NCBI RefSeq assembly: GCF_014652535.1
Contig: NZ_BMYZ01000001.1
Coordinates: forward strand, 1,736,001-1,800,000
DNA: 64,000 bases
Source: Cellvibrio zantedeschiae
GTDB lineage: Bacteria; Pseudomonadota; Gammaproteobacteria; Pseudomonadales; Cellvibrionaceae
Reading direction: 5' to 3'
The notes below the pieces were generated by a model. The model saw only the letters and a program-made list of their open reading frames with translations, was not told the origin of the DNA and searched no databases. This document shows positions 43,085 through 60,388 of this stretch, in pieces; the first letter of the stretch is position 1; every line of letters starts with the position of its first letter. A program made the position numbers and the translations under genes.

Positions 43085-44074
43085 ATGAGCAATCGAAAAA
43101 TCATTCGCTGGGGAATTATTGGCGTTGGTGATGTATGCGAAGTAAAAAGCGGCCCGGCACTTTACAAGAGCAAAGACTCCCAACTTTTAGCGGTGATGCG
43201 ACGCAACATCGACAAAGCCCGCGATTTCGCCCAGCGCCATCAAGTGGCGTTTTATTACGATGACGCCACTGCCCTGCTCGCAAATCCGGATATAGATGCG
43301 GTTTACATAGCAACGCCACCAGCATTCCATAAAGATTTTGCGTTAGCCGCAATAGCGGCAGGCAAGCAGGTTTACATTGAAAAACCTGTGACCTTAAATG
43401 CAGCCGAATGCGATCCTATTATTGCTGCTGCACAGCGAACAAATGCAAAAGTATGTGCTGCGCATTATCGTCGCTATGTGCCCTGCTTTATTAAATTTGC
43501 GGACTTATTGAAGAGCGGAGCCATAGGCATACCCCTACTGGCCAGAATTGATATGTTGCAACCTGCGGCATCTAATATCATTGCCAAAAGTGACGAAAAC
43601 TGGCGAGTGAATCCCGCAGTTTCTGGTGGCGGTTTATTTCACGATTTAGCACCTCACCAACTGGATTTATTGTTGCAATGGTTTGGTTCTTTAGTAGATG
43701 CGCAAGGCATGGCACTTAACCAACGTAAATCAAATGATGCAGATGATTGCGTAATAGGTAATGCAACATTTTCCTCTGGAGCCATATTCCAGGGCTGCTG
43801 GCATTTTGCAGTCAACCCACTACATACCAGCGACACTTGCGAGATTCTAGGAACAGAAGGAAAAATTAGTATTAACTTTTTTGGCCAGCAAGTTATTCAC
43901 TTACACAATGCGGATGGCGAACAAGAGTTTATTATTCCCAACCCTGAACATATTCAGCTGCCTATGATTGAGCAAGTGAACGCCTATTTTCGCGGCGAAA
44001 GGGATAATCCCTGCAGCATTCAAGAGGCTAAAGCGGTAATGGAATTGATCGATATATTTAGCAACAATGAATAA
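43085..44074 (+). CDS. Gfo/Idh/MocA family oxidoreductase
   Basis: 329 aa NAD(P)-dependent sugar or polyol oxidoreductase. The Rossmann motif is GIIGVGDV near residue 12, followed by AVMRRNIDKARDFA, IATPPAFHKDFALAAIAAGK and the catalytic-lysine motif YIEKPVTLN. The C-terminal domain holds GGGLFHDLAPHQLDLLLQWF. The substrate is not identifiable. Monocistronic in appearance, convergent with the RDD gene. Confidence 0.9.
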   Translation: MSNRKIIRWGIIGVGDVCEVKSGPALYKSKDSQLLAVMRRNIDKARDFAQRHQVAFYYDDATALLANPDIDAVYIATPPAFHKDFALAAIAAGKQVYIEKPVTLNAAECDPIIAAAQRTNAKVCAAHYRRYVPCFIKFADLLKSGAIGIPLLARIDMLQPAASNIIAKSDENWRVNPAVSGGGLFHDLAPHQLDLLLQWFGSLVDAQGMALNQRKSNDADDCVIGNATFSSGAIFQGCWHFAVNPLHTSDTCEILGTEGKISINFFGQQVIHLHNADGEQEFIIPNPEHIQLPMIEQVNAYFRGERDNPCSIQEAKAVMELIDIFSNNE

Positions 44075-44586: not shown

Positions 44587-45483
44587 TTAATGTTGGTAGT
44601 GAATTAACCAAGGATTTTTGGAATCAACTTGCTGACCGATACTGATCACGCCGGTACCTTGTAATGGGGCTTCTTCACGGCGTAAATAGATGGGAGTTTT
44701 ATTTTCTTCGTGCACGTAAGTGCCATTAGTGGAATGATCAACCAGCACATATTTTCCGCGACGGAATTCTATGTGGCAATGCTCGCGCGAGCACACCGAA
44801 TTATCCAGATACAAATGTACTTTATTGAGATCGCGTCCAATGGAATACGGAGTTTGGTCAGGCAAAATACTGACAATTTTGTCGCCCATTTTTAAGGTTA
44901 ACTGGAAGGTGGAAACGAAGCGAGTTACATCGTGAATCGGCATAACGCGAGTCGACAAATCGTTTTGCTGGGAGGTCTCCCAAGCAAGGCGATAGATAAT
45001 GGTTTTTTGACTGTCGCCCTTAATATTTACGCGATCAAACAATTGGCACTGATGCATGAGCGTCGCATCAAGTTCATCAATCACGCCCTGGGTAAGTACT
45101 ATTTGATTGGCTCGCGCAATGTGCGCAACAAATGCAGCGTCGTTTACGGTATCGCCAAATGCGTCGGTCGGCGTAACGACCGTATCGCCAAACGCAATGC
45201 CAATGCGTATTCCCAAACCTATGTCGGCAAATTCACGGCTTGAGCGCTGTTGAATCGCAATAGCAACTCTACAGGCTGTAGCTGCACTGTCAAAACGTGC
45301 CATGACTTCATCGCCGATAGTCTTAACTACGGTTCCTTCATGAACAATCGTCGTTGCAGCCATATGGCTTACGGCGTCATCCACGATTGCCTTGGCATCC
45401 TGATTCCCCAGCTGCTTATAAAGCGCCGAGCTGCCGGAAACGTCGGCAAACATGATGGCTTGAGGGGTGTTTTGATTAAACAT
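44587..45483 (-). CDS. class III adenylate/guanylate cyclase domain fused to FHA domain
   Basis: 298 aa, cytoplasmic. The N-terminal class III cyclase domain has metal aspartates Asp14 (FADVSGSS) and Asp58 (KTIGDEV), a candidate base-binding Lys54, and the region AFGDTVNDAAFVAHIARA with the transition-state Asn/Arg pair. The C-terminal FHA domain (about 220-290) has SIGRD, SREHCHIEF and STNGTYV, which binds phosphothreonine. The catalytic set looks complete. It likely joins a Ser/Thr kinase signal to cyclic nucleotide output. It precedes an RDD gene. Confidence 0.85.
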   Translation of the reverse strand: MFNQNTPQAIMFADVSGSSALYKQLGNQDAKAIVDDAVSHMAATTIVHEGTVVKTIGDEVMARFDSAATACRVAIAIQQRSSREFADIGLGIRIGIAFGDTVVTPTDAFGDTVNDAAFVAHIARANQIVLTQGVIDELDATLMHQCQLFDRVNIKGDSQKTIIYRLAWETSQQNDLSTRVMPIHDVTRFVSTFQLTLKMGDKIVSILPDQTPYSIGRDLNKVHLYLDNSVCSREHCHIEFRRGKYVLVDHSTNGTYVHEENKTPIYLRREEAPLQGTGVISIGQQVDSKNPWLIHYQH

Positions 45484-45764: not shown

Positions 45765-45780
45765 TTGACAGCGCTATCAA
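45765..45780. promoter_or_regulatory. LacI-type operator palindrome upstream of the TonB receptor
   Basis: TTGACAGCGCTATCAA, a palindrome centred on CG with one mismatched pair; extended to 45763-45782 it has nine of ten pairs. The centre AGCGCT is typical of LacI-family operators ahead of TonB receptors in Xanthomonas and Caulobacter. TTGACA could also act as a -35 element. Confidence 0.6.
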
Positions 45781-46014: not shown

Positions 46015-49000
46015 ATGTACAAAACAGTTAGCTTTAAAAAGAAGCTTCTGGCTACTTTAGTGGCATCGTCGAGCTTGGGCTTAAGCGGTTTTGCTTTTGC
46101 CCAGGACGACGCGGAAGAAATCGTTGTTACCGGGATTAAAGCCAGTATGGCGCGCGCCATGGACATCAAGCAGGATTCGGTAGGTGTGGTAGATGCCATT
46201 ACCGCTGAAGATATGGGTAAATTCCCAGACACCAACCTTGCTGAATCTTTGCAACGTATTACCGGTGTTTCTATCAGCCGCTCAAACGGTGAAGGTTCGC
46301 AGGTAACCATCCGTGGCTTCGGCGCGGACTATAACCTCATTACGTTGAATGGCCGCGCTATGCCGGGTGCAACTGCCAACCGTACCGGTGGCGGCACTCC
46401 ATCCAGCCGCTCATTTGATTTTGCGAATATTGCCTCTGAAAGTATTGCTGCGGTAGAGGTTTACAAAACTGGCCGTGCAGACATTAGCAGCGGCGGTATC
46501 GGCGGTACTATCAACATCAAGACCCCTCACCCACTCGACAATAACGGCTTTAAAGCTAGTGTTGGCGGCAAGTTGGTAAGCGATTCAACCAACATCAACG
46601 GCGACGATGTTACCCCTGAACTTTCAGGCATTGTGAGCTGGTCCGATGAAACCTTTGGCGTTGCCTTGACTGCAAGCCACCAAAAACGCGACAGCGCGAA
46701 CATTGGTGCTTTCGTAAGCAACTGGAACGACACTGCAATTTGGCACACAGCGGATACAACCCACGCTTATTTGCCGAACACTCCAGCTAGCGCCATCAAA
46801 AACGCTCCGTCAGAAGGCCAAAGCTACTCAGTTCCAACTGACATCCGCTACCAAATTACCGACGTTACCCAAACCCGCGATAACGCCCAGTTAACCTTGC
46901 AGTACAGCCCAGTAGAAAATGTTGTAGGTACTTTGGATTACACCTACGCGCGCAGAACTGACCACACTCAACGTGGCGAACAATCAATTTGGTTTCAGGG
47001 CGGTTCTTACGACGCAGTTACCTTTGATAGCGGCGCAGTGAAAACGGCTACTTTTGTCGCCCAAAATGGCGCCGGCGGTGGCGGCGGTCATGGTTTGGCA
47101 GTACAAGATGGCCAAATGAAGGATGAGCTCAAGTCTACCGGTGCGAATATTAAGTGGGATGTTAACGATGCTTTGACCCTGTCAGTGGATGGTCACCACT
47201 CAGAAGCTGTTAGCGGACCGGATACTCCGGAAGGTTACAACTGGGTTAACGTTGGCATCACCGCTCCAGTTATGGGCGGCTACCAGGCAACGTTCAACGA
47301 TAGCCTGCCAATCCAATCTTTCACTTTTAAAGAGAGAGCAACTGGCCCTAACGTAAACGGCAAGTATGACGCTGACGACATCAGTAGCCAGATCATGCAA
47401 ATGTTTAGCGCCCAACAAAAAGTAACCATCAACCAATTCAAAGTTGATGGTGATTTGTCGCTGGATAAAAACACCATTAACTTTGGTCTTGAGTCACGCA
47501 ACACTGAACAAAACGCCAGCAACGGTTTTACCCAAACCACTATGGGCGACTGGGGTATTACCAATCCAGGCGATGTTCCTAACGAACTGGTACGCGCGAT
47601 TAACTTCCCATCAGCGTTTGAGGATTACAACACCAAAGGTGCTACCACTACCGCATTTACCGGTAATGGCCGTGCAATTGGCCAGTGGGCAATCAAGCAA
47701 TACGCCAATCAACCTGGCGGTGGCAAAGCTCACTTCACTGCAGATCCAGTTAACAACGAAACCATTGAAGAGAACATTCGTTCTATCTACGTTCAATGGA
47801 ACCGTGAAGGCGAAGTTGCGGGCATGAAGACTCACGCAGCCCTTGGTTTGCGTTATGAAGCTACAGATGTAATGTCGTCAGCCTTAACCAGATTGCCATT
47901 GTCTTTGACGTGGGAAAGTAACAACGACTTCCACTACAACCGTCAGGCTAGCCAGACTTCCTTCTCACAAAAGGCAACCTACTCCCACACCCTGCCCAAC
48001 CTGGATTTCGACATTCAGTTAACCGAAGGTGTTAAGGGTCGTGTGTCCTTCAACGAAACTATTGGTCGCCCGACTTACAACAACCTGAGCTCTGCCGTTA
48101 CCCTGAACAACCCTTCAGGTGCAACTATTCCATCCATTCCAGGCCAACGCGTAACCGCGAGCGCTGGTGATCCATCAATCCTCCCATTGAAGTCACAAAA
48201 CTTTGATGCATCCATTGAATGGTATTACGCAGACGCAAGCTACGTGTCTATCGGTGTGTTTGAGAAGCACGTAGAGAACTTTGTAGGCACCCAGCAAATC
48301 AACAAAAACTGGTTCGGCCTGCAAGATCCAACCCAAGGCGCAAGCGTAACTGCGGCCAGAGCGGCCTTGGCTGCAATGGGCCTGGACGGTAGCGATGACA
48401 CCCGTTTGTTCACTATGACGGCGTTGATTGAAGCAGGTAAACAAGGGACTTATCAGGACAACCAAGCCTTCTGGGATGCGGCTGAGCCTTTGTACGACGT
48501 GAACTCGAAAGCCGACAGCCCGCTGTTGATCTATCGCACTACGGTTCCATTCAACGATAAGTCAGCCAAAATCCACGGTGCTGAATTCGCTGTTCAGCAC
48601 TTCTTTGGTGAGACTGGTTTCGGTGTATCTGCAAACTACACCAAAGTTAGCGGTGACATAGGCTACGACGTATTGTTGGATCCAACCCAAAACCAATTTG
48701 CGTTAACCGGCTTGAGCGATACTGCAAACGCCTCCTTGATTTATGAAAACTACGGTTTCACTTCTCGTATTTCATACAACTGGCGTGATGAGTTCCTTGC
48801 AGCGGCTGGCCAAACCCCAACCTTCGTTGAAGCCTTTAGTCAAATCGACTTCAACATCAGCTACGCAGTACCACAATTTGAAGGTCTGTCTGTGTCGCTA
48901 GAAGGGATTAACGTAACGGGTGAGAACTTCCGTTCACACGCTCGTACCAAAAACCAGTTAGTGGGCCTGCAAGATTTGGGTGCCCGTTACAACCTGGGTG

Positions 49001-49017
49001 TTCGCTATAACTTCTAA
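46015..49017 (+). CDS. TonB-dependent receptor (Xanthomonas/Caulobacter type)
   Basis: 1000 aa outer-membrane receptor. Signal peptide ends GFAFAQ. TonB box EIVVTGI near residues 36-42, plug domain with TAEDMGKFPDTNLAESLQRI and GVSISRSNGEGSQVTIRGFG, typical of the TIGR01782-like group, and beta-barrel ending RYNLGVRYNF. The last residue is Phe, the barrel assembly signal. Followed by a terminator and then sapC and a halogenase, a set often seen in carbohydrate-utilisation loci. Substrate unknown; the operators suggest sugar control. Confidence 0.92.
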   Translation: MYKTVSFKKKLLATLVASSSLGLSGFAFAQDDAEEIVVTGIKASMARAMDIKQDSVGVVDAITAEDMGKFPDTNLAESLQRITGVSISRSNGEGSQVTIRGFGADYNLITLNGRAMPGATANRTGGGTPSSRSFDFANIASESIAAVEVYKTGRADISSGGIGGTINIKTPHPLDNNGFKASVGGKLVSDSTNINGDDVTPELSGIVSWSDETFGVALTASHQKRDSANIGAFVSNWNDTAIWHTADTTHAYLPNTPASAIKNAPSEGQSYSVPTDIRYQITDVTQTRDNAQLTLQYSPVENVVGTLDYTYARRTDHTQRGEQSIWFQGGSYDAVTFDSGAVKTATFVAQNGAGGGGGHGLAVQDGQMKDELKSTGANIKWDVNDALTLSVDGHHSEAVSGPDTPEGYNWVNVGITAPVMGGYQATFNDSLPIQSFTFKERATGPNVNGKYDADDISSQIMQMFSAQQKVTINQFKVDGDLSLDKNTINFGLESRNTEQNASNGFTQTTMGDWGITNPGDVPNELVRAINFPSAFEDYNTKGATTTAFTGNGRAIGQWAIKQYANQPGGGKAHFTADPVNNETIEENIRSIYVQWNREGEVAGMKTHAALGLRYEATDVMSSALTRLPLSLTWESNNDFHYNRQASQTSFSQKATYSHTLPNLDFDIQLTEGVKGRVSFNETIGRPTYNNLSSAVTLNNPSGATIPSIPGQRVTASAGDPSILPLKSQNFDASIEWYYADASYVSIGVFEKHVENFVGTQQINKNWFGLQDPTQGASVTAARAALAAMGLDGSDDTRLFTMTALIEAGKQGTYQDNQAFWDAAEPLYDVNSKADSPLLIYRTTVPFNDKSAKIHGAEFAVQHFFGETGFGVSANYTKVSGDIGYDVLLDPTQNQFALTGLSDTANASLIYENYGFTSRISYNWRDEFLAAAGQTPTFVEAFSQIDFNISYAVPQFEGLSVSLEGINVTGENFRSHARTKNQLVGLQDLGARYNLGVRYNF

Positions 49018-49062
49018 GTCACGGCTTATAGTCACAGCTTAGAGTTAAGTGATTTATCCTAC

Positions 49063-49093
49063 AAAAAAAGCCGCTGGAAACAGCGGCTTTTTT
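49063..49093 (+). terminator. rho-independent terminator after the TonB receptor
   Basis: AAAAGCCGCTG-GAAA-CAGCGGCTTTT with a T run, 50 bases past the stop. It stands between the receptor and sapC, so part of the transcription may stop here. Confidence 0.88.
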
Positions 49094-49242
49094 GTCTTTG
49101 GCTTATTTTGTCCAGCATTGGTTTACCCAGGATTTATTTAGCTTTAAGGGTGATATAATTTCGCCAAATTATTAGACCCTGACCAAAGAACCACAACAAT
49201 TATAAACAATTGCAGCTCTCCATCGAATACCAAGGATCCACA

Positions 49243-49983
49243 ATGACTAACCATGTTTTGCTCGACAATATCACCCACAAAGATTTAAAAATTATTACTA
49301 AAAAATCTGCCGAGTTCGGCGATAACCAACGCGGCGTAATTACCTTCCCTACCGAATTTCGCGCGATACAAAATGAGTACCCTATTTTTTTTCAACGCAA
49401 TCCTGATACCGATGAATTCCAGGCGGTTGCCATGCTCGGCTTCGAGGAAGGAGAAAATTTATTTCTGGATGAAAAAGGTTGGAACGCCAACTATATTCCC
49501 GCCGCTATTAATCGCGATCCATTTTTGATCGGCTACAAAAATGATACCCAGGACGGCGCACCTATTAAACGTGTCGCTGTTCATGTCGATATGGATAGCC
49601 CGCGCATCAGCAAAAACGACCAAGGCGCAGCCGTGTTTTTACCCTATGGTGGTAACAGCGAATATTTAGAACGCATTCAACGTATGCTACTTGTTATTCA
49701 AGACGGCGTACCCACCAGCAAAGCCATGTTTGATGCCTTTAAAAAATGGGATTTGCTTGAGCCCTTCACACTCAACATTGAATTTATTGATGGCAAAAAA
49801 TACAGCCTGATAAATAATTTCACCGTTAATGAAGAGAAACTTTACCAACTGGATGGCGCAGCCCTTCAAGAACTCAACAGCACCGGCTTTTTATTCTCCG
49901 CCTATATGGTTATTGCCTCCATGGCAAACATCCAAACATTAATAGAAAAACGTAATTCATTACTCGCTAAAACATCTGCCTGA
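49243..49983 (+). CDS. SapC family protein
   Basis: 246 aa protein matching the SapC family (PF07277-like; S-layer-associated SapC of Campylobacter): HVLLDNITHKDLKII near the start, then FPTEFRAIQNEYPIFF and MDSPRISKNDQGAAVFLPYGG. No signal peptide visible, so cytoplasmic as read. The ATG at 49243 has AAGGA seven bases upstream; the earlier TTG at 49210 is rejected. Lies between a TonB receptor and a halogenase, the usual arrangement in Xanthomonas and Caulobacter relatives. Its biochemical role is not established. Confidence 0.85.
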   Translation: MTNHVLLDNITHKDLKIITKKSAEFGDNQRGVITFPTEFRAIQNEYPIFFQRNPDTDEFQAVAMLGFEEGENLFLDEKGWNANYIPAAINRDPFLIGYKNDTQDGAPIKRVAVHVDMDSPRISKNDQGAAVFLPYGGNSEYLERIQRMLLVIQDGVPTSKAMFDAFKKWDLLEPFTLNIEFIDGKKYSLINNFTVNEEKLYQLDGAALQELNSTGFLFSAYMVIASMANIQTLIEKRNSLLAKTSA

Positions 49984-50040
49984 TAAATTCGGCACACGTA
50001 TTAGCTATAACTGATTACACATAAAAATATTGGAGTCTCC

Positions 50041-51519
50041 ATGAATAGCCCGGTAAAAAAAGTTGTTATTGCAGGCGGCGGAACCGCCGGCTGGATGGCT
50101 GCTGCCACACTCTCCTGTCAGCTCGGCCAAGTTATTGAAATCACCCTGATTGAATCTGATGAAATTGGCACTGTAGGCGTGGGTGAAGCAACCATTCCAC
50201 CTATGCAAGCCTTTCACAAATTAATTGGTATTGATGAGCAAGAATTTCTACGTGCCACCCAAGGCACATTCAAACTCGGCATCAGTTTTGAAAACTGGGG
50301 CGAAATTGGCGATCAATATATCCACTCTTTCGGTCAAACCGGCAAAGAGTTTTGGGCCGCCGATTTCCAACACTTTTGGTTAAAACTGCGCGAGCTTGGT
50401 TCAACTGCTGAATTCGGCGATTTTTGTTTAGAACTACAAGCAGCCAAGGAAAACAAATTTGCGATTACCGAAAATCCGCGCATCAATTTCGCCTACCATT
50501 TCAACGCAACCTTATACGCGCAATTTTTACGCAAATTCAGCGAAAAACGCGGCGTAAAACGCGTTGAAGGAAAAATTGCAGAAGTTGCCACCAATAGCGA
50601 TAACGGATTTATCCAAAGCTTAAAATTAACATCTGGTCAGGTCATTGACGGTGATTTATTTATCGATTGCACCGGTTTCCGCGGCTTGTTAATTGAGCAG
50701 ACATTACACACTGGCTACGAGGATTGGTCACACTGGTTAGTTAACGATAGCGCCATTGCTGTACAAACCGAGAGTGTGGGCCCAGCAATCCCTTATACGC
50801 GCGCTATTGCACATCCAAGCGGCTGGCAGTGGCAAATCCCCTTACAAAGCCGTGTAGGCAACGGAATGGTTTATTCCTCGCGTTTTATTTCTGATGAAGA
50901 TGCAAAGAAAACCTTTTTATCCAATTTAGATGGGCCCGCCATTACCGAACCTCGAGTGATTAAATTTAAAACTGGCCGCCGCATGAAGGGCTGGAATAAA
51001 AACTGTATTGCATTAGGTTTGGCGAGCGGATTTATCGAGCCACTGGAATCTACCAGCATTCATTTGATTATGTCTGGCATATTGCGCTTGATTAAACTTT
51101 TCCCAAACCATGGCATTAACGATGTCAATGTTGCGGAATACAACAAGCAATCGGCATTTGAAATTGAAAGCATTCGCGATTTTGTCATCCTGCATTACAA
51201 AGCGACTGAGCGTAGTGATTCTGAATACTGGCGCTATTGCCGCGATATGGAAGTGCCGGAAACTTTGGCGCACCGGATAAAATTATTTGCAGATAGCGGT
51301 TTAGCATTTAAAGGTGATGGCGAAATCTTCCGCATAGATTCCTGGACACAAGTCATGTTAGGCCAACGAATTTATCCGAAGTCTTACCATCCCATTGTTA
51401 ACGTAATGAATCAGGATGATCTAAAAAGATCAATTGAAGAGTTCGCTGTAGGTATTAAAAAACGTGTGGCGCAACTCCCAAGCCATGCTGATTTTGTGAA
51501 AGGCTATTGCGGAATTTAG
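50041..51519 (+). CDS. flavin-dependent tryptophan-halogenase family protein
   Basis: 492 aa FADH2-dependent enzyme. FAD motif GGGTAG at residues 12-17, catalytic lysine Lys78 in TFKLGISFENW, and the diagnostic WxWxIP at 262-267 (WQWQIP). These three features agree with a working halogenase rather than a monooxygenase. The closest type, from context with TonB receptor and SapC, is the BrvH/Xcc4156 group, which brominates free indole in vitro. The real substrate is unknown. It needs a flavin reductase that is not in the window. Confidence 0.88.
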   Translation: MNSPVKKVVIAGGGTAGWMAAATLSCQLGQVIEITLIESDEIGTVGVGEATIPPMQAFHKLIGIDEQEFLRATQGTFKLGISFENWGEIGDQYIHSFGQTGKEFWAADFQHFWLKLRELGSTAEFGDFCLELQAAKENKFAITENPRINFAYHFNATLYAQFLRKFSEKRGVKRVEGKIAEVATNSDNGFIQSLKLTSGQVIDGDLFIDCTGFRGLLIEQTLHTGYEDWSHWLVNDSAIAVQTESVGPAIPYTRAIAHPSGWQWQIPLQSRVGNGMVYSSRFISDEDAKKTFLSNLDGPAITEPRVIKFKTGRRMKGWNKNCIALGLASGFIEPLESTSIHLIMSGILRLIKLFPNHGINDVNVAEYNKQSAFEIESIRDFVILHYKATERSDSEYWRYCRDMEVPETLAHRIKLFADSGLAFKGDGEIFRIDSWTQVMLGQRIYPKSYHPIVNVMNQDDLKRSIEEFAVGIKKRVAQLPSHADFVKGYCGI

Positions 51520-51533: not shown

Positions 51534-51574
51534 TAAAAAAACCTCAGGCATCGTTGATACCTGAGGTTTTTTTC
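51534..51574 (+). terminator. rho-independent terminator after the halogenase gene
   Basis: ACCTCAGG and CCTGAGGT pair, with an inner ATC-GTT-GAT extension, flanked by A and T runs. It ends the sapC-halogenase unit and can also serve the convergent sigma-54 regulator gene. Confidence 0.9.
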
Positions 51575-51614: not shown

Positions 51615-52823
51615 TCACCCGGCTTGCAACTCAGCTAGCTGCACTTCCGTAGGGTCTTCATAATCTCCCGCTCTTCCATAGCTATTGTCAGTTAACAAAC
51701 CATGGCGCTTCAACAGAGTGCGCATTACATTACGGGAAATTCCCAACAAGGCAGCACCATGAACTTGATTGGAACGTACATAAGCAAACGCCTGATGCAC
51801 AATTAAACTTTCCAAACGCTCAAAGTGCGGTCCATCGCCCTGCTCGGTAAATAACCTACGCAACTGTTGCGCAATAATTGCCAAGGGGTCATCTTGCGGA
51901 ACATTGGAAGACGAATGAATACTTTGTGGCACACCCGCTATGTGAGGCTTAGGGCGCGACTCTGGATAAGCTTGGGAACTGCGTGGCGCACCGGTTTCCC
52001 AACCACCGGTAACCTTCAAATGAGATGCATCAATCGTATCCGCACCGGCCACCAAAAGCGCAAAATGAACTACGTTTTCCAGCTCGCGAATATTGCCCGG
52101 CCAGGAATAATGCAACAATAAATCTACCGCCTCTGCCGAAAATTGCGGGCGTTGTTTATAGCCCATGCGTTGGCTATAGGTTTTCAAAAAATGTTCTGCG
52201 AGTGGCAATACATCACCCGGTCTGTCACGCAGTGGTGGAAGTTTAACGTGTGCAATATTAATTCTGTATAACAAATCACGGCGGAAATGCCCGGCAGAAA
52301 CCGCGTAATCCAAATCCACGTTGGTTGCTGCAACCAAACGCACGTCAACGGCAATAGATTTACGCGATCCGATACGTACTACTTCTTTTTCTTGCAGCAC
52401 GCGCAATAGTTTTACTTGCAACGGAAGAGGCAAATCGCCAATTTCATCTAAAAATAATGTGCCGCCATTAGCCGCTTCAAACCAACCTTCACGCTTGCCC
52501 GCAGCACCGGTGAATGATCCTGCCTCATGGCCAAAGAGTTCGCTTTCTGCCAGGTGATCGCTAATCGCTCCACAGTTCACTGCAAGGAAAGGCCCCTTTC
52601 TACCGCTCAACAAATGGATATGGCGAGCAACCAATTCTTTACCCGTGCCTGTTTCACCGCCGATTAATACAGGCGCTTCACTGGGTGAAATTCGTTCAAT
52701 ATATTCTAACAACTCTGCTGAAATTGGATCAGAGAAAACCAACGCCTTAGCGCGTACAGATAAGGGTTGGGCATTACCACCTTCCAGAGAAAGCACAACG
52801 GGTTCTTTAGATGAGTCGCTCAC
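51615..52823 (-). CDS. sigma-54 enhancer-binding protein without sensor domain (SfnR-like)
   Basis: 402 aa activator of sigma-54 RNA polymerase. Walker A GETGTGKE at 56-63, a GAFTGA loop in the GSFTGA form at 102-107, Walker B GGTLFLDEIGD near 120-130, LLYRIN and WPGNIRELENV, and a C-terminal Fis-type helix-turn-helix (GAALLGISRNVMRTLLKRHGL). Only about 30 residues precede the AAA+ domain, so there is no receiver or GAF sensor, as in SfnR. The GTG start (52823) has GAGG seven bases upstream. Downstream of sbp on the same strand; sulfur control is inference from that neighbour. Confidence 0.9.
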   Translation of the reverse strand: MSDSSKEPVVLSLEGGNAQPLSVRAKALVFSDPISAELLEYIERISPSEAPVLIGGETGTGKELVARHIHLLSGRKGPFLAVNCGAISDHLAESELFGHEAGSFTGAAGKREGWFEAANGGTLFLDEIGDLPLPLQVKLLRVLQEKEVVRIGSRKSIAVDVRLVAATNVDLDYAVSAGHFRRDLLYRINIAHVKLPPLRDRPGDVLPLAEHFLKTYSQRMGYKQRPQFSAEAVDLLLHYSWPGNIRELENVVHFALLVAGADTIDASHLKVTGGWETGAPRSSQAYPESRPKPHIAGVPQSIHSSSNVPQDDPLAIIAQQLRRLFTEQGDGPHFERLESLIVHQAFAYVRSNQVHGAALLGISRNVMRTLLKRHGLLTDNSYGRAGDYEDPTEVQLAELQAG

Positions 52824-53020
52824 GATGTGACCTCAGATTTATTTTGCAGTGAATACAAATTGCCATAAGGCTCAATATGTGACGCATTGTAAAAGTTAAA
52901 TTCGAAAATCATAAGGAATTTATAAATCTAAAGTTATAACTAAAAAATAAATATTCAGACGACAAACGAGTTAATGAAAACCAACAAAATTCGCGAATAG
53001 AAAATTGCCTTTTCCATAAA

Positions 53021-53047
53021 ACAACACCTGCACATGGCAGGTGTTGT
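53021..53047 (-). terminator. terminator after sbp
   Basis: ACAACACCTGC, 5-base loop, GCAGGTGTTGT: an 11-bp perfect stem with a moderate T tract on the minus strand. It separates sbp from the sigma-54 regulator gene. Confidence 0.75.
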
Positions 53048-53074
53048 CCGGGTTTTATCGACTTAGCGTAAAAA

Positions 53075-54073
53075 TTACTTAACGTAAATTTTATCGAAAA
53101 TGCCACCATCGCCGAAGTGTTCTGGCTGCGCCTTACCCCAACCACCAAAATCATCGATAGTAACGAATGCGAGTTTCGGGAAGTTTTTGGCATAAGTCGC
53201 TGCAACTTGTGCATCACGTGGACGGTAGTAGTTCTTGGCAGCAATTTCCTGGCCTTCTTTGCTGTAGAGGTAGCTCAAGTATGCTTGAGCTACAGCAGTG
53301 TTGCCTTTTGCTTCAGCATTTTTATCCACTACTGCAACAGACGGCTCAGCAAGAACGGAGATTGATGGAACAACGATATCAAATTTGTCTGCACCGAATT
53401 CTTTCAATGCCAAATGAGCTTCGTTTTCCCATGCCAAAAGCACATCACCTACACCGCGCTGTGCGAAGGTAGTGGTTGAGCCACGAGCACCGGAATCCAG
53501 CACAGGAACGTTTTTATACAACTTCGCAACGAAATCTTGTGCTGCTTGATCAGAACCTAATTTCTTTCTCGCGTAGCCCCAAGCTGCCAAATAATTCCAG
53601 CGTGCGCCGCCAGAAGTTTTTGGGTTTGGAGTAATGACTTCAACACCAGGCTTAATTAAATCATCCCAGTCTTTGATTTTTTTCGGGTTGCCTTTTTTCA
53701 CCAGGAACACAATAGTAGAGGTGTATGGAGCACTGTTGTTAGGTAAGCGGGTAATCCAGTTATCTGCTAATAACTTCCCTTTTTTTGCCAAGGCATCTAC
53801 GTCTGCAGCCAAAGCCAAAGTGGCTACGTCAGCTTGCAGACCATCAATTACTGCACGTGATTGACTGCCAGAGCCACCATGAGATTGCTCAACCTTAACA
53901 ACATCACCCGTTTTTTCTTTCCAGTATTTAGCGAAAGCGGTGTTGTACTCTACATAGAGTTCACGGGTTGGATCGTAAGATGCATTTAACAAGGTAATAT
54001 CTTTTGCAAAAGCAGTAGATGAAATTAATAGGGTTGCCGCAAAGAGCGCAGCGTGTTTGGTAAACAGCTTCAT
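53075..54073 (-). CDS. sbp: sulfate-binding periplasmic protein
   Basis: 332 aa periplasmic receptor for the CysTWA sulfate/thiosulfate importer. Signal peptide cleaved after [48 protein letters not shown] and [16 protein letters not shown]-type motifs match Sbp/CysP. The ATG at 54073 has GAGGAA upstream. No cysT, cysW or cysA lies beside it, so it works with a transporter encoded elsewhere. A sigma-54-like promoter lies about 64 bases upstream of the start. Confidence 0.95.
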
Positions 54074-54146
54074 AAATTTTCCTCAGACAAAACAGATAAG
54101 GGTTAAAGCGAACAAAAAATTTAACCTTGTTGCTTGATGATACTTA

Positions 54147-54162
54147 TGCCATATCTATGCCA
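54147..54162 (-). promoter_or_regulatory. candidate sigma-54 promoter of sbp
   Basis: On the minus strand TGGCATAGATATGGCA: GG and GC at the exact -24/-12 spacing and 10 of 12 informative consensus positions (TGGCACR-N4-TTGCW). Predicted start about 54137, giving a 64-base leader before sbp. Confidence 0.55.
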
Positions 54163-54416
54163 GCGAAGATGTTTTTTTAGATGAGTTAAGTGAAACAAAA
54201 TTAAAATAGTTATAAGGAAGAAAATTTAATCGGAATGAAAAATTAGTGTAATAAAGATTTAATATTGGCTAAGGTTTCTCTTGGATATCTAGAAGAAATG
54301 ATAAAAAATATGGCGCCCGATTTTAATAAGCTTTCATAAACATAGATTGCGCCAGTACAAAAAAGTATCTGCAGAAGTAACAAGCCGCTAAAAAATCCTG
54401 TTTATATTTGCACACG

Positions 54417-54432
54417 TGTTGAATTTCAAACA
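54417..54432. repeat. TGTTGAATT inverted repeat, sbp upstream copy 1
   Basis: TGTTGAATTTCAAACA contains TTGAA-T-TTCAA, a perfect inverted repeat. It lies about 270 bases upstream of the sbp -24 element. Proposed enhancer site for the adjacent sigma-54 activator. Confidence 0.45.
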
Positions 54433-54450
54433 AACACCACCAATCAGCCC

Positions 54451-54466
54451 TGTTGAATTCTGTACA
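54451..54466. repeat. TGTTGAATT repeat, sbp upstream copy 2
   Basis: TGTTGAATTCTGTACA shares the first nine bases with copy 1 but is less symmetrical. Its centre is 34 bases from that of copy 1, roughly three helical turns. Confidence 0.35.
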
Positions 54467-54485
54467 CCTGAAACCAAAACAGAAA

Positions 54486-54528
54486 AAAGCCTCTCAATCT
54501 TAATCCCTGGACAAAAATGAGAGGCTTT
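54486..54528 (-). terminator. terminator after the minus-strand TonB receptor
   Basis: AAAGCCTCTCA and TGAGAGGCTTT pair across a 21-base loop, with a T run on the minus strand. It ends the 54563-56662 gene. Confidence 0.8.
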
Positions 54529-54562
54529 AGCAACGAAGGAAAATATGAAAGGGAAAATAAAG

Positions 54563-56662
54563 CTAGAAATTATATTTTAACCCTACGCGTACTGAACGGG
54601 GTTCTTCAGCGCGGCTTACACGACCACCCTCTAGATCAAAAGCATTTTCATAGTAGTAAACAATGTCCTTGCCATCGTGATCGAGCAGGTTTAATACCTC
54701 ACCGTAAACAGTGATTTTTTCAAACTCATAGGCAAGGCGAACGTTCAACATGGTTTCACCGTCTGCACGCTTCGAGTTATCTGGCAATAAAGGATAAGAA
54801 CCCAGGTAACGTAAACGTGCACTAAGCTCCCAGCCATTACGTGTTGCAGCAACGCCAATTTCACCCGCATTTTCTACGGCACCTTCAACGTATTCACCGC
54901 CCGATTCTTCCGGGTCGATGTTGCGCGCCTTGCTGCCGGTATAAACTGCATCAATCCCAAGCCACTCTACAGGTTTCCAAAAAGCGACCAATTCGTAACC
55001 CTGGCGTTTAGCACCACCCTTAGGTTCTACGGAGTTGGAGTCTCCCACAAAAATTAATTCGCTCGATAAATTTAACCACCAATAAGCCGCGCTAATTTTA
55101 AAATTGCCTTGCTCAAAACGCAGGCCACTTTCATAACCGCTACCGCGGACTAACGCAGGAACAGATACTTCTTTATTGACTACACCACGCGCGTCATTCG
55201 AGTGAAAGCCCTGCCCCCAGTTTCCGTACAACTCAATTTGATCGGTCAACGTGTAAGCGATTCCCAATTTAGGCGAGCTAATATTATCTGTGCTATCACC
55301 AACATTTATGGTATCGCCAGAGCCAGAATTAGCCGCTACGCTGGAGTCATAAACGTCTGCGCGAAAACCGGCAGTAAGACGCAATTTTTCTAGAGGACGC
55401 CAATTGGATTCGACATAAACACCCAAAGAGTTTTCATCAACTTTATTGTCACTAATGTTGGCGATAAAATAGCCCAATCGAGTTGCATTCAAACCCACTT
55501 TCGAAATTTTATCGTAACGCCATTCAGCGCCGACCAACACATCAAATTCATCGCCCTTATAAAAGATGCGTTCAAAACGCCCACCGAAGGTATTGCGGCG
55601 ATCAAACTGATCAATTTGGCCATCTTCTGTGTAGGTGGGATTAGACAGCATGTGCCAATCGTAGAATTGACCATAGAGCGTTGCACGCCAATCATCGCCC
55701 AACCAATTGCTGGTTAAAATCCAGCGATTGGTTTTTCCATAGGCTGATGGATCAAGCGAGCAAAATTCGTCTTTGCAATTCTCACTGCCAAATGCACTTT
55801 CCGGTGTTTGCTCTGTAGGATGCCAGGTCGCTATGTAACCAGACAAAGAAAGATCCCAGGTTCCGTAATCCGTCTTCTCGGAATATTTACCCCACACAGA
55901 TTTATGCTGGAGATCTTCTGGCAATTCCCAAGGGCCATCATAAGTTTTGTACTGGCCAATAAAAGTTAACTTGCCATCACCCACTTCGGTTGTACCGCCT
56001 CCAGCGACCCTACCCCATCCATAGCTTCCACCTTCAACTGCAAGAAATGGAGCACCGAGACTATCGATACTTTTAAAGTGCCCACTTCCCGCCATAGAAA
56101 AATCACCGGCAGCAGCACGGTAAGTTCCTTTACGATAATCAACGCGCTCCACCGTTTCAGGAATTAAACCATTCACATCCAAATAGCCCTGACCGTGGCC
56201 GTGAGTTCGAAGATTCCAGGGCACATCATCTATATAAGTGGTGAAGTCGGTACCGTGGTCCAAATTAAAACCGCGCAAAAAATATTGGTTGGCTTTGCCA
56301 CTGCCCGAGTGTTGCGCAGCAATCATTCCCGGCACTGCTTCCAATAAATCTGCAACACGTAGCATTGGGCGCACGAGCAAATCATCGCCACCCACAGAAC
56401 CTTCGCTGGCCGCGCCAGCCACACCGATAAGTTTTTCACCGCGACCGAAAATAATGACTTCATCTATAGCGTCAGCTACAGCAAGGCTGGCATCAGCCGA
56501 TGCAATTAAAGCAGTTGAAGATTTAACTAAAGCGGTTTGCGCAGATAAATTAGCGGAATACAACAATGGTGCAGCAATGGAACTATAAAGCGCTAGCTGT
56601 TTAAATTTTGAAAATCGCGGTCGATAATTGAAAGACAACGGGGGCGTATTAAGCAAGAGCAT
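54563..56662 (-). CDS. TonB-dependent receptor
   Basis: 699 aa outer-membrane receptor. Long signal region (to about residue 42), TonB box DEVIIFG, plug domain with PMLRVADLLEAVPGMIAAQHSG, YFLRGFNLDHGTDFTTYID and RVDYRKGTYRAAAGDFSMAG, and a beta-barrel ending RVGLKYNF. The gene is divergent from a second TonB receptor, sharing a 427-base intergenic region. I saw no -24/-12 element for this direction. The ligand is unknown; the GDFSxAG plug type is not diagnostic. Confidence 0.9.
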   Translation of the reverse strand: MLLLNTPPLSFNYRPRFSKFKQLALYSSIAAPLLYSANLSAQTALVKSSTALIASADASLAVADAIDEVIIFGRGEKLIGVAGAASEGSVGGDDLLVRPMLRVADLLEAVPGMIAAQHSGSGKANQYFLRGFNLDHGTDFTTYIDDVPWNLRTHGHGQGYLDVNGLIPETVERVDYRKGTYRAAAGDFSMAGSGHFKSIDSLGAPFLAVEGGSYGWGRVAGGGTTEVGDGKLTFIGQYKTYDGPWELPEDLQHKSVWGKYSEKTDYGTWDLSLSGYIATWHPTEQTPESAFGSENCKDEFCSLDPSAYGKTNRWILTSNWLGDDWRATLYGQFYDWHMLSNPTYTEDGQIDQFDRRNTFGGRFERIFYKGDEFDVLVGAEWRYDKISKVGLNATRLGYFIANISDNKVDENSLGVYVESNWRPLEKLRLTAGFRADVYDSSVAANSGSGDTINVGDSTDNISSPKLGIAYTLTDQIELYGNWGQGFHSNDARGVVNKEVSVPALVRGSGYESGLRFEQGNFKISAAYWWLNLSSELIFVGDSNSVEPKGGAKRQGYELVAFWKPVEWLGIDAVYTGSKARNIDPEESGGEYVEGAVENAGEIGVAATRNGWELSARLRYLGSYPLLPDNSKRADGETMLNVRLAYEFEKITVYGEVLNLLDHDGKDIVYYYENAFDLEGGRVSRAEEPRSVRVGLKYNF

Positions 56663-56821
56663 TTAAAAATTCCTAATAATAAATAGTGATTGATCCTTTC
56701 GTTAGCAACAACAATATATTAACGAAAACTTTAAGATGACGATTGAACCGCCGATACTAGAGAAATACTTTTTTAATAAAAAAGACTATTTATTTATTAG
56801 CTTATAACGACAAAAATTTAA

Positions 56822-56837
56822 TGTTGAATAATTAACA
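56822..56837. repeat. TGTTGAAT inverted repeat, TonB receptor copy 1
   Basis: TGTTGAATAATTAACA; arms TGTT and AACA pair with further partial pairs inside. It matches the copies upstream of sbp over TGTTGAAT and ends in ACA. Confidence 0.4.
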
Positions 56838-56875
56838 GCAGCAAAAAACATGCTGCAATCTAATCATCATGGGCC

Positions 56876-56891
56876 TGTTGAATTTCCAACA
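56876..56891. repeat. TGTTGAAT inverted repeat, TonB receptor copy 2
   Basis: TGTTGAATTTCCAACA, arms TGTTG and CAACA. Differs from sbp copy 1 at a single base. Its centre is 54 bases from that of copy 1 and about 140 bases upstream of the -24 element at 57024. Confidence 0.45.
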
Positions 56892-57023
56892 CCCATCAAA
56901 CTTTAAGATGTTTTTTACAAACAAGATTCCAGCTTCTAAAAAAACTTGGCGATAGCCGCAACCTCAAGCCAGACAAGGTTTTCCGAAAAAATACAAAACT
57001 TGGACGGTGCGATTTCCAGCACT

Positions 57024-57039
57024 TGGCACACTTATTGAG
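57024..57039 (+). promoter_or_regulatory. candidate sigma-54 promoter of the plus-strand TonB receptor
   Basis: TGGCACACTTATTGAG: a perfect -24 box and TTG at the right spacing, but the -12 GC reads GA. 10 of 12 informative positions agree. Predicted start about 57049, a 40-base leader. Confidence 0.45.
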
Positions 57040-57089
57040 TTAGCCAAGCTCGTAAACCATTCAAAGATTTTTATAGCTGGAGTTATTTA

Positions 57090-59738
57090 ATGAGTATTTC
57101 GCGTTATCCCCGTTTGCTGAATGTGCAGCAAGCATCCACCAACGCAGCGAGAACCACGCAGCCGTTTACACGCAAGTTTATTGCTACCGCAATAAGTTTT
57201 GTTATTGGTGCCTCTTTAACATCGTTCAATGTTTATGCCGCAGATGAAGCAACAGATAAGGACAAGCAACAGCAAAAAAGTAAAGCTGTTAAATTGGAAA
57301 CTGTAGTAGTAACTTCGCGTAACCGTGCTGAAGCGGCGCAAGAAGTTCCTCTGCCCGTTCGTGTAATTGGTGGTGAACGCCTTGACCGCGATGACATTAA
57401 ATCTGTGTGGGATTTACCATCAGTTGCACCAAACTTGCAGCTCAACAACCCTGGCGAAAACGCACGTAAAGTGAGCCCCGGCATCCGTGGCTTGGGTCGT
57501 GGTGGCGCTAACGATTCTATGGAGCAAAGCGTAGGAACAATCGTTGACGGCGTAACTCTTTATTACTCAGGCCAAGCCTGGGCAGATTATGTTGACCTCG
57601 ATCGCATTGAAGTTTTGTACGGCCCGCAAGGCACATTAGTGGGTAAAAATACTTCTTTGGGTGCAATTAAAATTGCAACCAAAGCACCTAGCTTTAAACC
57701 CTCATCAAAATTTGAAGTGACCACTGGTGAACTCAATACTTTGCAAGGCAAATTTTCTACTACCGGCCCTTTAATTGATGATTTGCTGGCGTACCGCGGC
57801 ACCTTTCTGGTAACTCGCAAAGATGGTCTTTACGACAATACTTATTTAAATTTTGGAAAGTCGCGCGAAACCTGGCGTGAAGAGAACAAAGTTGCAGGCC
57901 GTATACAATTTTTATTGACGCCTAACGAAGATTTCACCGGGCGTTTTATTTTCGACAAATTACGTTCAGATGAGCGTGTAAATACCGGTAACGTACTGGC
58001 TTCCAATGGCCCGGACATTTTTGCTGATGGAACTGCACGCCCTCTTACTACACCGATTACTGCCAACACGGGTTATACACCTTCAGGCCAATACTCTAGC
58101 GTAGGTTACCTGGGTAAATTTGCTGAGCGCTCAGCCTGGTTCCATAACGCAGACGGTACTGTTTATCAACCGCCAGTTGGCACTACCGATATTGAAAACT
58201 CACAAGCACGTCCGCAATTAACTAATCAACACGGTGCTTCAGCACAGTTTGACTGGCATGTGGCAAACCATACCTTTACATCAATTACTGCATATCGCTA
58301 TCAAGATTTTGATATTAAAAACGGCGGTCAATTCGGTAAGTTTTATGTGAGCAACAGCGGCCAGCAATTGTGGAACGATCAGTTCTCGCAAGAGTTGCGT
58401 GTAGCCTCAGATACTGCTGAGAAAAAAGCATTCGATTATCAAGCGGGTATTTATTATTTGGATGCTGAAGTTTACAGCGATGACCCAAGTTTCTATGGGC
58501 CAGATGCTGGTGCATGGAATGCGAGAGCAGCTCAGTACACGACTTTAGTTGCGAACACGACTCCATCATTGCGTGCAGCTGGTCGTGAATTGTTGCGCGC
58601 ATCTTTAGACGGTGTTTATCAATCTTCAGCAACTGATGCAACCGTACAAAGTTTGGCGGCTTATGCACAAGCTGACTGGCACATTTCTGACAAAGCAACC
58701 TTGTCGTTTGGTGTTCGTGATACCGAAGAAAGTAAACAAAATAAAATTGCTACACAAATTGATCGCCCCGGTGAAGACCTTGATGCACTCGGCGCTTTAT
58801 ATGGAGCAACTGCGGCACAAATTAAAGCAGCAAAAGATATTCGTTTAGCCTCTGTACCCATTCCAAACGGATTTGATTTTGTGAAAGCTAATGATATTGA
58901 TGCAAATCTCGTCGCGTGGAATATCAGCCCAAGCTACAAATTAAGTGAAGACGTGAATTTATACGCTTCTGTTGGTAGAGGTGTTAAATCGGGTTTCATT
59001 TATTTCCAACAATATGTTGCGCCCACTGATGCAGGTTTCGTGTCTTACATCAAGCCAGAAAAAGTGTTGGACTATGAGTTGGGAATTAAAAGTTTATTGC
59101 TAGGCCGCACTTTGCAATTGAACGTTAATTTGTACAACACGGAAGTAACTGACTACCAGGCTTCATGGCGTCGTGACGATCCAAATTCAACCGTAACTGG
59201 CCAAACCATTAGTGGCTGGGGTAACGCGCCTAAAGTGGTCGCGCGTGGTATTGAGTTGGAATCTAATTACCGTTTCAATCAAGAGCTTGATTTCAATTTG
59301 GCCGCTGCTTACAACAAAGCAACTTATGAAGCTGAGTGGTTGGTGCAAACACCTGAACTGTTAGCAACCAATAAATATTTTGATGCTAAAGGTCAACAGA
59401 TTGCCAACGTTCCTAAAGTTGTCATCAACTACGGTTTAAATTACCAAACTCCAGTTGCTGGTTATCTTGGTCGTATCACTTTGCAAAACACTTATCGTTC
59501 AAGCTCTTACTTCAACGATAACCATGCAGATTTTACGCGTCAGGATGCATACAACGTAACAAACTTAAGTTTGGCGATTGGCTCCTTAAACAAAAAATGG
59601 GAAGCACAGTTGAATATCCGCAACTTGTTGGATACCGACTACGCCACATCCAAGAGTACTTATTCGGCAACTGCTGGACAAACTCTCAACATAGGTGCAC
59701 CGCGTTACACCAGCGTAACACTTAAATACAACTTGTAA
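57090..59738 (+). CDS. TonB-dependent receptor
   Basis: 882 aa outer-membrane receptor. An extended signal region (cleavage near FNVYAA) is followed by the TonB box LETVVVTSRN, a plug (GGERLDRDDIKSVWDLPSVAPNLQL, GIRGLGRGGANDSMEQ, DRIEVLYGPQGTLVGKN) and a beta-barrel ending RYTSVTLKYNL. The ATG at 57090 has GGAG nine bases upstream. It leads the block with the GlcG-like protein, DsbD-like transporter and redoxin, all plus strand. Its ligand is unknown. Confidence 0.9.
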   Translation: MSISRYPRLLNVQQASTNAARTTQPFTRKFIATAISFVIGASLTSFNVYAADEATDKDKQQQKSKAVKLETVVVTSRNRAEAAQEVPLPVRVIGGERLDRDDIKSVWDLPSVAPNLQLNNPGENARKVSPGIRGLGRGGANDSMEQSVGTIVDGVTLYYSGQAWADYVDLDRIEVLYGPQGTLVGKNTSLGAIKIATKAPSFKPSSKFEVTTGELNTLQGKFSTTGPLIDDLLAYRGTFLVTRKDGLYDNTYLNFGKSRETWREENKVAGRIQFLLTPNEDFTGRFIFDKLRSDERVNTGNVLASNGPDIFADGTARPLTTPITANTGYTPSGQYSSVGYLGKFAERSAWFHNADGTVYQPPVGTTDIENSQARPQLTNQHGASAQFDWHVANHTFTSITAYRYQDFDIKNGGQFGKFYVSNSGQQLWNDQFSQELRVASDTAEKKAFDYQAGIYYLDAEVYSDDPSFYGPDAGAWNARAAQYTTLVANTTPSLRAAGRELLRASLDGVYQSSATDATVQSLAAYAQADWHISDKATLSFGVRDTEESKQNKIATQIDRPGEDLDALGALYGATAAQIKAAKDIRLASVPIPNGFDFVKANDIDANLVAWNISPSYKLSEDVNLYASVGRGVKSGFIYFQQYVAPTDAGFVSYIKPEKVLDYELGIKSLLLGRTLQLNVNLYNTEVTDYQASWRRDDPNSTVTGQTISGWGNAPKVVARGIELESNYRFNQELDFNLAAAYNKATYEAEWLVQTPELLATNKYFDAKGQQIANVPKVVINYGLNYQTPVAGYLGRITLQNTYRSSSYFNDNHADFTRQDAYNVTNLSLAIGSLNKKWEAQLNIRNLLDTDYATSKSTYSATAGQTLNIGAPRYTSVTLKYNL

Positions 59739-59774
59739 TTTTTTAAAAAATTGGATTGCAAGACCCAAGTACGG

Positions 59775-59806
59775 GTAGAGCTGTTTATTCAGCTCTACTT
59801 TTTTTA
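59775..59806 (+). terminator. hairpin terminator/attenuator after the TonB receptor
   Basis: GTAGAGCTG-TTTATT-CAGCTCTAC followed by eight T. It lies between the receptor and the GlcG-like gene, so the downstream genes would get reduced transcription or use another promoter. Confidence 0.8.
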
Positions 59807-59824
59807 TTTATAAGAGAGTGATTT

Positions 59825-60388
59825 ATGAAAACCTTTAAACCTAGTTTATTAGCCAGCCTTTGCGCACTTACCCTTAGTATTACTGCACTTAATGTGACTG
59901 CGGCAGATGCACCTAAAGAAGCTGCAAAACCTGCTGAAGCTGCTCCCGCTGGTCAACAGCGCCAACAAGTGCCAGCTGCACGTGGCCCAGCGCTTGAATT
60001 GGCAATTGAAGCAGCACGTATTGCAAATGAAACTTGCGCTGCCGATGGCGGTCAGAAAATTGCAACCAGCGTGGTAGATTCTGCTGGTGTATTGAAAGTG
60101 TTATTAGCATCTGACGGTGCCTCACCACGCGGTGTTGCATCAAGTACCAACAAAGCGGTTACTGCGCTTAACTTTAAAGCTTCGACAAGCCAACTTGCCG
60201 AACAAGCCAAAACCGATAAAGCCCTGGCTGATAAAGTTGCAGCAGATACAACCATTAATGTTCGTCCCGGCGGTATCTTAATTAAAGTTGGCGATGAAAT
60301 TATTGGTGCGATTGGTGTTGGCGGTGGCAGAACCGATGAACCCTGCGCATTGGCAGGATTGCAAAAAATTCAAGCGCGTTTGAAATAA
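59825..60388 (+). CDS. secreted GlcG/HbpS family protein
   Basis: 187 aa protein with an N-terminal signal peptide (cleavage near VTAA, residues 24-27), a Pro/Ala-rich linker and a GlcG/HbpS (PF03928-like, DUF336) domain: LELAIEAARIANETCAADG, ATSVVDSAGVLKVLLASDGA, DTTINVRPGGILIKVGDEIIGAIGVGGG. HbpS of Streptomyces binds haem; heme binding here is not shown. Two cysteines (in ETCAADG and EPCALAG) sit in the mature domain. It ends 9 bases before the DsbD-like start. Confidence 0.85.
   Translation: MKTFKPSLLASLCALTLSITALNVTAADAPKEAAKPAEAAPAGQQRQQVPAARGPALELAIEAARIANETCAADGGQKIATSVVDSAGVLKVLLASDGASPRGVASSTNKAVTALNFKASTSQLAEQAKTDKALADKVAADTTINVRPGGILIKVGDEIIGAIGVGGGRTDEPCALAGLQKIQARLK

Follow-up and report, generated by a model that had tools for sequence, protein, structure and literature searches.

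We investigated a three-gene receptor locus in a 64,000-nucleotide stretch of the 4.27 Mb genome of Cellvibrio zantedeschiae (G000:C1:1736001-1800000; hereafter, the window). The locus encodes a TonB-dependent receptor, a SapC protein and a flavin-dependent halogenase on the plus strand, and is a reduced copy, without Cupin_8, of an operon that is real, conserved and widespread. The reading that we favor, although with somewhat less than even confidence, is that the cytoplasmic enzymes of this operon may modify the receptor polypeptide itself. The receptor (46015..49017) belongs to the TIGR01782 (TonB-Xanth-Caul) subfamily, with 609.5 bits against a cut-off of 310 and profile positions 2-868 of 868 covered, and its N-terminus resembles a signal peptide (signal peptides were judged by eye throughout). 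SapC (49243..49983) matched PF07277 with 220.9 bits (gathering cut-off 28.9), and the halogenase (50041..51519), which is BrvH/Xcc4156-like and hereafter HalA, matched PF04820 (Trp_halogenase) with 644.4 bits. These profile matches confirm the three genes proposed in an earlier note made from the DNA alone. The most likely start codon of sapC is ATG 49243, because the genome's other four copies align there and AAGGA stands just before it; an alternative start at TTG 49210 was disfavored on the same grounds.

The wider operon was described from 80 named loci, which were the best matches of one scan among the matches listed and are tilted to the window-type halogenase. Sixty of these loci had full flanks (7 kb upstream and 5 kb downstream), and among them we found the receptor in 57, Cupin_8 in 51, SapC in 50, a second halogenase in 32 and DUF6445 in 7, with none of these in 3. 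The genes are usually arranged as receptor, HalB (the second halogenase, variable), SapC, Cupin_8, HalA and DUF6445 (variable). Hosts span the alpha-, beta- and gammaproteobacteria, including Alteromonas, Colwellia, Shewanella, Xanthomonas, Stenotrophomonas, Sphingomonas, Asticcacaulis, Massilia and Duganella. The three-gene set had been expected to recur in Xanthomonas and Caulobacter; recurrence was indeed found in Xanthomonas (L086) and Caulobacteraceae (L078, Asticcacaulis), but the form there has a cupin. The cupin-less form was represented in none of the 60 full-flank loci, and occurred in the window and, apparently, at G033:1146016-1151273, a genome in which Cupin_8 itself was not searched for. 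The receptor of that second copy is 48% identical to the window receptor, and approximately 100 bases separate its SapC and halogenase profile matches. We found no description of the operon in the literature covered, which excluded preprints, most subscription papers and the 2019 Xcc halogenase paper.

The association between halogenase and receptor was counted in six Cellvibrionaceae genomes, namely the window's own and five that we chose. Here, 78 of the 89 PF04820 genes had a TIGR01782 receptor no more than 5 kb away, in 74 cases on the same strand. Without the window's own genome, the count was 66 of 75 halogenases, compared with a mean of 5.7 and a maximum of 12 under random placement. 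These counts exclude one receptor below the cut-off (G029:2839968) and merge split matches for two receptors (G033:1646023-1649394 and G051:1260063-1263077) and one halogenase (G033:1649552-1650921). SapC genes were near a TIGR01782 receptor in 20 of 28 cases and not near one in the other 8. The C. zantedeschiae genome itself has 14 PF04820 genes, 12 of them near TIGR01782 receptors, together with 17 receptors that pass the TIGR01782 cut-off, 5 SapC genes and 3 Cupin_8 genes, all three of which sit in halogenase-receptor loci (L030, L031 and L032). A control genome, Caulobacter vibrioides, gave matches for all four families searched.

Halogenase linkage is inherited along the receptor tree, requiring 21 changes as against a mean of 44.9 and a minimum of 38 after shuffling. 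Across 53 loci, halogenase and receptor distances were strongly correlated (r = 0.86), and the partial correlation given SapC and Cupin_8 was 0.59 (permutation maximum 0.13). Because such co-divergence could reflect protein length, we cut the proteins to 200 columns; the halogenase-receptor partial then fell to 0.45, with 0.36 for receptor-SapC, 0.45 for SapC-Cupin_8 and 0.05 for Cupin_8-halogenase. Co-divergence with the halogenase was strongest in receptor alignment columns 330-530 (partial 0.59). We also made 791 column-residue tests in the 134 receptors of the six genomes and paired the best 40 on the tree, uncorrected for the 791. On this basis, W923 occurred in a fraction of 0.73 of linked and 0.25 of unlinked receptors (tree pairs: 3.6 same, 2.0 opposite), W326 in 0.50 and 0.08 (3.3 and 0.1), Leu293 in 0.52 and 0.12 (8.2 and 0.6), and Tyr at the position of window F941, where the window receptor has Phe, in 0.55 and 0.11 (5.6 and 0.5). 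An earlier comparison, which had 76 linked and 9 unlinked receptors, had favored W326 and W923, and the contrast was weaker with 134 receptors.

The window halogenase retains the flavin adenine dinucleotide (FAD) motif GxGxxG as GGGTAGW (residues 12-18), the catalytic Lys78 and WxWxIP (W262, W264, I266 and P267), as the earlier note had read. Its nearest solved relatives were 6y1w (623.5 bits), 9luq (546.8) and 6frl, which is BrvH (450.4), whereas RebH scored 298.4. We take 6y1w to be Xcc4156, and its sequence does carry the Asn described for that enzyme. The window protein aligns nearly end to end with BrvH and Xcc4156 and shares their FAD motif, Lys and WxWxIP; its phmmer alignment to 6y1w, based on sequence only, covers residues 5-490 with a single one-residue gap, so that loop lengths agree. 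The two nearest named relatives, among the matches listed, were Cellvibrio and Cellvibrionaceae records. The halide site reads E336-S337-T338-S339, with Ser339 in place of the Gly that, according to PMC7336383, most halogenases carry. A residue other than Gly is the feature of the BrvH/Xcc4156 type (Ser in BrvH, Asn in Xcc4156), in contrast to the Gly of RebH and PrnA. PMC7336383 and PMC5945002 describe BrvH and Xcc4156 as having open sites and as acting on indoles, not on free tryptophan, and allow that a peptide may be a substrate. In vitro, BrvH halogenates indole with low activity (PMC5945002), and PMC7336383 states that the native substrates are unknown for BrvH and for three Xcc halogenases.

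These relationships bear on the family name and on the similarity to RebH and PrnA, which belong to the same PF04820 family and share the catalytic motifs, and which would suggest that free tryptophan or a metabolite precursor is halogenated for a natural product whose genes lie elsewhere in the genome. That explanation is close to refuted and highly improbable in our view: the nearest solved relatives are 6y1w and 6frl, Xcc4156 and BrvH being reported as inactive on free tryptophan (PMC7336383), and 12 of the 14 halogenase genes are near TIGR01782 receptors. In addition, the neighboring genes form no biosynthetic cluster, as the earlier note had stated, and the genome has no nonribosomal peptide synthetase condensation domain (PF00668; polyketide synthase domains were not searched for). 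Compared with RebH and PrnA, the window enzyme has Ser for the halide-site Gly, a far lower score and no biosynthetic cluster. We therefore rejected free-tryptophan secondary metabolism on the basis of the nearest relatives, the receptor association and the lack of PF00668, and regard the operon as very unlikely to serve secondary metabolism. The idea that the enzyme is tied to its receptor, with no biosynthetic cluster, held up; its closest counterparts are BrvH and Xcc4156, which published work found inactive on free tryptophan (PMC5945002 and PMC7336383).

A different concern is whether the PF04820 protein still halogenates at all, or now serves instead as a flavin monooxygenase or as a flavin-based sensor controlling the expression or activity of the receptor. 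Among the focal halogenases of the 80 named loci, Lys78 was kept in 80 of 80, the four WxWxIP residues in 77 and ESTS, with Ser for Gly, in 71; among the 42 other halogenases of these loci, Lys was kept in all, WxWxIG replaced WxWxIP in 35 and EASA, with Ala at the halide site, was present in 37. The changes at the halide site and in WxWxIP favor such a loss, as does a paralog (L031:11193-12749; G000:C2, approximately 138192-139748) that lacks both GxGxxG and the catalytic Lys and yet retains its reading frame. Conversely, the catalytic Lys is present in 80 of 80 and 42 of 42 copies, and PMC7336383 describes halogenase activity for BrvH and two Xcc enzymes, all of which have Ser at this position of the halide site. 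We thus consider loss of halogenation in the window protein improbable. The paralog, the middle one of three tandem halogenases following one receptor, is itself likely a pseudoenzyme, judging from its missing motifs. Similarly, two normal halogenases flank a low-scoring copy (260.7 bits) at G033:469657-471051.

SapC, the halogenase, Cupin_8 and DUF6445 all lack an N-terminal signal peptide. Ten SapC residues (H12, E38, G66, W80, P86, F94, F132, G136, L171 and S226) were invariant in 62 sequences. The predicted SapC model was confident (pLDDT 97.2), yet no PDB entry matched it at E 0.001, and among 996 chains none reached Z 2; a known enzyme fold for SapC was therefore discarded. The Fe(II) triad HxD...H was complete in DUF6445 (14 of 14 at all three positions) and nearly so in Cupin_8 (70, 70 and 69 of 70). 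The DUF6445 model, built from 11 sequences (pLDDT 90.4), gave nine matches at E 0.001 and matched 2-oxoglutarate (2OG)/Fe(II) oxygenases, including OGFOD1 and P3H1, which we take to be protein hydroxylases. Cupin_8 shares HxD...H with FIH/JmjC-type enzymes, FIH presumably also being a protein hydroxylase. The window locus itself has neither the Cupin_8 nor the DUF6445 gene, and the TM-scores to OGFOD1 were modest (0.30-0.52).

The sugar connection of the window locus derives from its regulatory DNA and its relatives and not from adjoining genes. No transporter, degradative enzyme or regulator for sugars was found among the adjoining genes (for L086, the operator alone was checked). A LacI-family-type operator, TGACAGCGCTATCA (45766..45779, no strand assigned), lies upstream of the receptor inside a 16-base near-palindrome (45765-45780). 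The LacI consensus, which we take to be TGnnAnCGnTnnCA, occurred within 450 bp upstream of 43 of the 74 receptors with a downstream accessory gene, compared with 2.7% of 1600 random windows; these background windows, like those for terminators, were random places, mostly coding. Within the window, the bare consensus was found twice against 1.2 expected, which is no excess over chance. A one-mismatch twin of the window operator, itself a perfect palindrome, sits at G000:C1:923133 between a glucokinase gene and a glycoside hydrolase (GH) family 3 gene, with a LacI-like fragment, recognized by eye, beyond the glucokinase gene. Two-mismatch copies were found upstream of a 3-keto-disaccharide hydrolase gene (G000:C5:50338) and downstream of a GH97 gene; because a control pattern also gave matches (0 forward, 3 reverse), these may be due to chance and only the one-mismatch twin was used. 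From the position of this twin, the ligand of the window receptor is probably a gluco-oligosaccharide, and our best guess is that it is beta-linked. The receptors of L059, with a GH94-MFS_2-LacI set, and of L066 and L067, with GH1, are among those nearest to the window receptor (46-47% identity; named loci, among the matches listed). The two-mismatch site by the 3-keto-disaccharide hydrolase gene and a Gfo/Idh/MocA oxidoreductase gene in the window (43085-44074) hint weakly at glycoside 3-oxidation.

An intrinsic terminator, AAAAAGCCGCTG-GAAA-CAGCGGCTTTTT (49065..49092, plus strand), was recognized in the gap between the receptor gene and sapC by a pattern script and sequence reading; a consensus scan gave this hairpin for the minus strand only, and its 9 terminators in the region were no excess over the 7.5 in shuffles. 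Among relatives, a terminator stood between the receptor and the first accessory gene in 38 of 74 cases, compared with 21 of 2000 random windows. Before sapC, an extended -10-like promoter element, TGATATAAT (49151..49159, plus strand), with a weak -35, was identified by eye and not reported by the consensus scan. A further terminator 3' of the halogenase gene (51540..51573, plus strand; CCTCAGG...CCTGAGG, then a T run) was also identified by eye, its loop of 11 being beyond the limits of the scan. Considering the operator, the inter-gene terminator, the -10-like element and the end terminator, we suppose that the receptor gene is probably transcribed strongly and that sapC and the halogenase gene form a weaker or separate two-gene unit.

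These sugar signals raise the question of whether the substrate of the enzymes is an aromatic compound entering with the ligand, such as an aryl glycoside or its aglycone, once it has been carried across the inner membrane into the cytoplasm. Sugar transporters, GH3, GH1, GH16 and GH94 enzymes and LacI regulators do stand beside many copies: the families among neighbors of the named operons included LacI (11 of 102), GH3 (10), MFS_1 (9), GH16 (6), GH1 (5) and MFS_2 (5), the 102 being hand-chosen from 262 flanking open reading frames (ORFs). The co-divergence of halogenase and receptor and the low in vitro activity of BrvH on indole (PMC5945002) would fit as well. Conversely, no aromatic-catabolism family was prominent in the 25 of 84 families shown for those 102 ORFs. 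Moreover, halogenase-receptor pairs in the C. zantedeschiae genome occur at loci for maltodextrin (GH13, L024) and N-acetylglucosamine (L025 and L026, by eye) and at GH95 (L029) and GH5 (L034) loci, and in relatives also at beta-glucan loci, and an aromatic group common to all of these is not expected. We consider such a substrate improbable. The earlier suggestion that the enzyme acts on the receptor's ligand was not supported in that form, because the sugars vary and the enzymes have no signal peptide, while the ligand taken up by the receptor arrives in the periplasm. Its alternative, an envelope component, fits better, with the receptor polypeptide as the most economical candidate.

SapC was also found away from TIGR01782 receptors. 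Of 60 regions that we chose and fetched, 2 had no SapC and 1 had a TIGR01782 receptor; setting these aside left 57 lone-SapC loci with no such receptor within 5 kb. Among their immediate neighbors, of which 91 of 111 were scanned as a set, others separately and some not at all, TolC-type outer membrane efflux proteins (OEP) occurred 6 times and PPIC rotamases 5 times. In the separate scans, the neighbors included an RTX giant, a TpsA/TpsB pair and a DUF4214 protein, as well as two TonB receptors of other kinds. As a control, we took 91 of the 194 genes lying farther away; there, HlyD was present (4), and OEP and the rotamase were outside the 25 top families shown, so that each occurred at most about once. 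A subset of lone SapC genes thus stands beside genes for the export of surface proteins. Loci of this kind from genomes of other families (L240, L250, L241, L245 and L259) have SapC beside an RTX giant, TpsA/TpsB, TolC/HlyD-type secretion genes or DUF4214. Another lone SapC (L028:8355-9098) lies near ihfA- and pheT-like genes, identified by eye. The neighborhoods with RTX, TpsA/TpsB, DUF4214 and TolC-type genes are what would be expected if the enzymes had some other envelope or secreted polypeptide as their target, be it a small peptide, a partner in the periplasm or a protein of a surface lattice. Against this stands that no further exported protein recurs between receptor and halogenase in the named operons (ORFs of at least 90 aa), and we regard such a target as rather unlikely.

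We return to the receptor polypeptide as the substrate, for which each line of evidence is indirect. The sugar varies between loci while the receptor and enzyme families stay, and the enzymes are cytoplasmic, where the receptor before export is the constant partner. Two partners have protein-hydroxylase-like features, and some lone SapC genes adjoin export or outer-membrane genes. Furthermore, the linkage is inherited on the receptor tree, and halogenase divergence follows the receptor beyond the other genes. From the observed gene content, association, regulation signals, intact motifs and co-divergence, we infer an active halogenase, its substrate, a role for SapC and a benefit as follows. 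A LacI-family regulator responding to a gluco-oligosaccharide would induce the TIGR01782 outer-membrane receptor. The genes 3' of the terminator, whose products are probably at lower dose because of it, would encode cytoplasmic SapC and the flavin halogenase, joined in most relatives by one or two oxygenases of the Fe(II)/2OG type. From halide, O2 and FADH2, the halogenase would form hypohalous acid (HOX), which Lys78 would deliver to an aromatic residue held at an open surface site. The most likely substrate would be the receptor polypeptide, either before it is exported or while export is under way, and SapC would help to present or hold it. Such a modification would adjust how the receptor binds its ligand, how stable it is or how it is recognized. 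The broader proposition, that Proteobacteria carry a dedicated cytoplasmic system switched by sugar regulators, in which halogenases, JmjC-type and DUF6445 Fe(II) oxygenases and SapC halogenate and hydroxylate TonB receptors before export, seems to us possible but doubtful.

Several observations weigh against the receptor as substrate. No receptor residue was universal or decisive for halogenase linkage among the 134 receptors (best 40 of 791 tests paired), Trp and Tyr content hardly differed between linked and unlinked receptors, and a universal Trp/Tyr target sought in these receptors was not found. An enzyme acting on the ligand would give co-divergence as well. In the six genomes, 72 of the 134 receptors had no nearby halogenase and 11 of the 89 halogenases had no nearby receptor. 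SapC was present in 45 of 120 genomes of the phylum, 35 of which showed no TIGR01782 at the strict limit; this absence is soft, since at most seven candidates per genome were scored at that limit, and 10 of the 12 genomes with TIGR01782 had SapC. The SapC genomes without TIGR01782 nevertheless ruled out SapC as a strict TIGR01782 partner. Many neighbors of lone SapC genes have no export role, the DUF6445 matches include small-molecule dioxygenases and have modest TM-scores, and we know of no halogenated outer-membrane receptor.

The operon differs from known systems that share its parts. SapC of the Campylobacter fetus S-layer locus, from which PF07277 takes its name, also stands beside surface-protein export, whereas the window SapC stands beside a TonB receptor. 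The carbohydrate-utilization (CUT) loci of Xanthomonas hold a receptor, a transporter, enzymes and a regulator. Like them, the window has a sugar-regulated TonB receptor with an upstream LacI-type operator, but its partners are SapC and a halogenase and its catabolic genes are elsewhere, so that it is not a CUT locus. A text count gave no occurrence of the word 'halogenase' in PMC1790865 on CUT loci.

The operon makes the native-substrate question testable, because it names the co-encoded receptor, the type of regulator and the partners usually present, and it gives a prediction for the inducing sugar. Should the receptor prove to be the substrate, many genes assigned to secondary metabolism as 'tryptophan halogenase' would belong to nutrient uptake, tallies of halogenated natural products from genome mining would have to be corrected, and SapC would gain a role. 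Halogenation or hydroxylation of receptors, if true, would be a new kind of modification for outer-membrane proteins; one of the genomes examined (G033, one split match merged) has as many as 27 halogenase genes.

Other genes surround the locus. A gene for a guanylate/adenylate cyclase domain fused to an FHA domain (44587-45483) is divergent to the receptor operon. Downstream, 51615-60388 contains a sigma-54 activator gene, a solute-binding-protein-like gene, identified by eye, and genes for two more TonB receptors (54563-56662 and 57090-59738), whose NCBIfam matches do not include TIGR01782.

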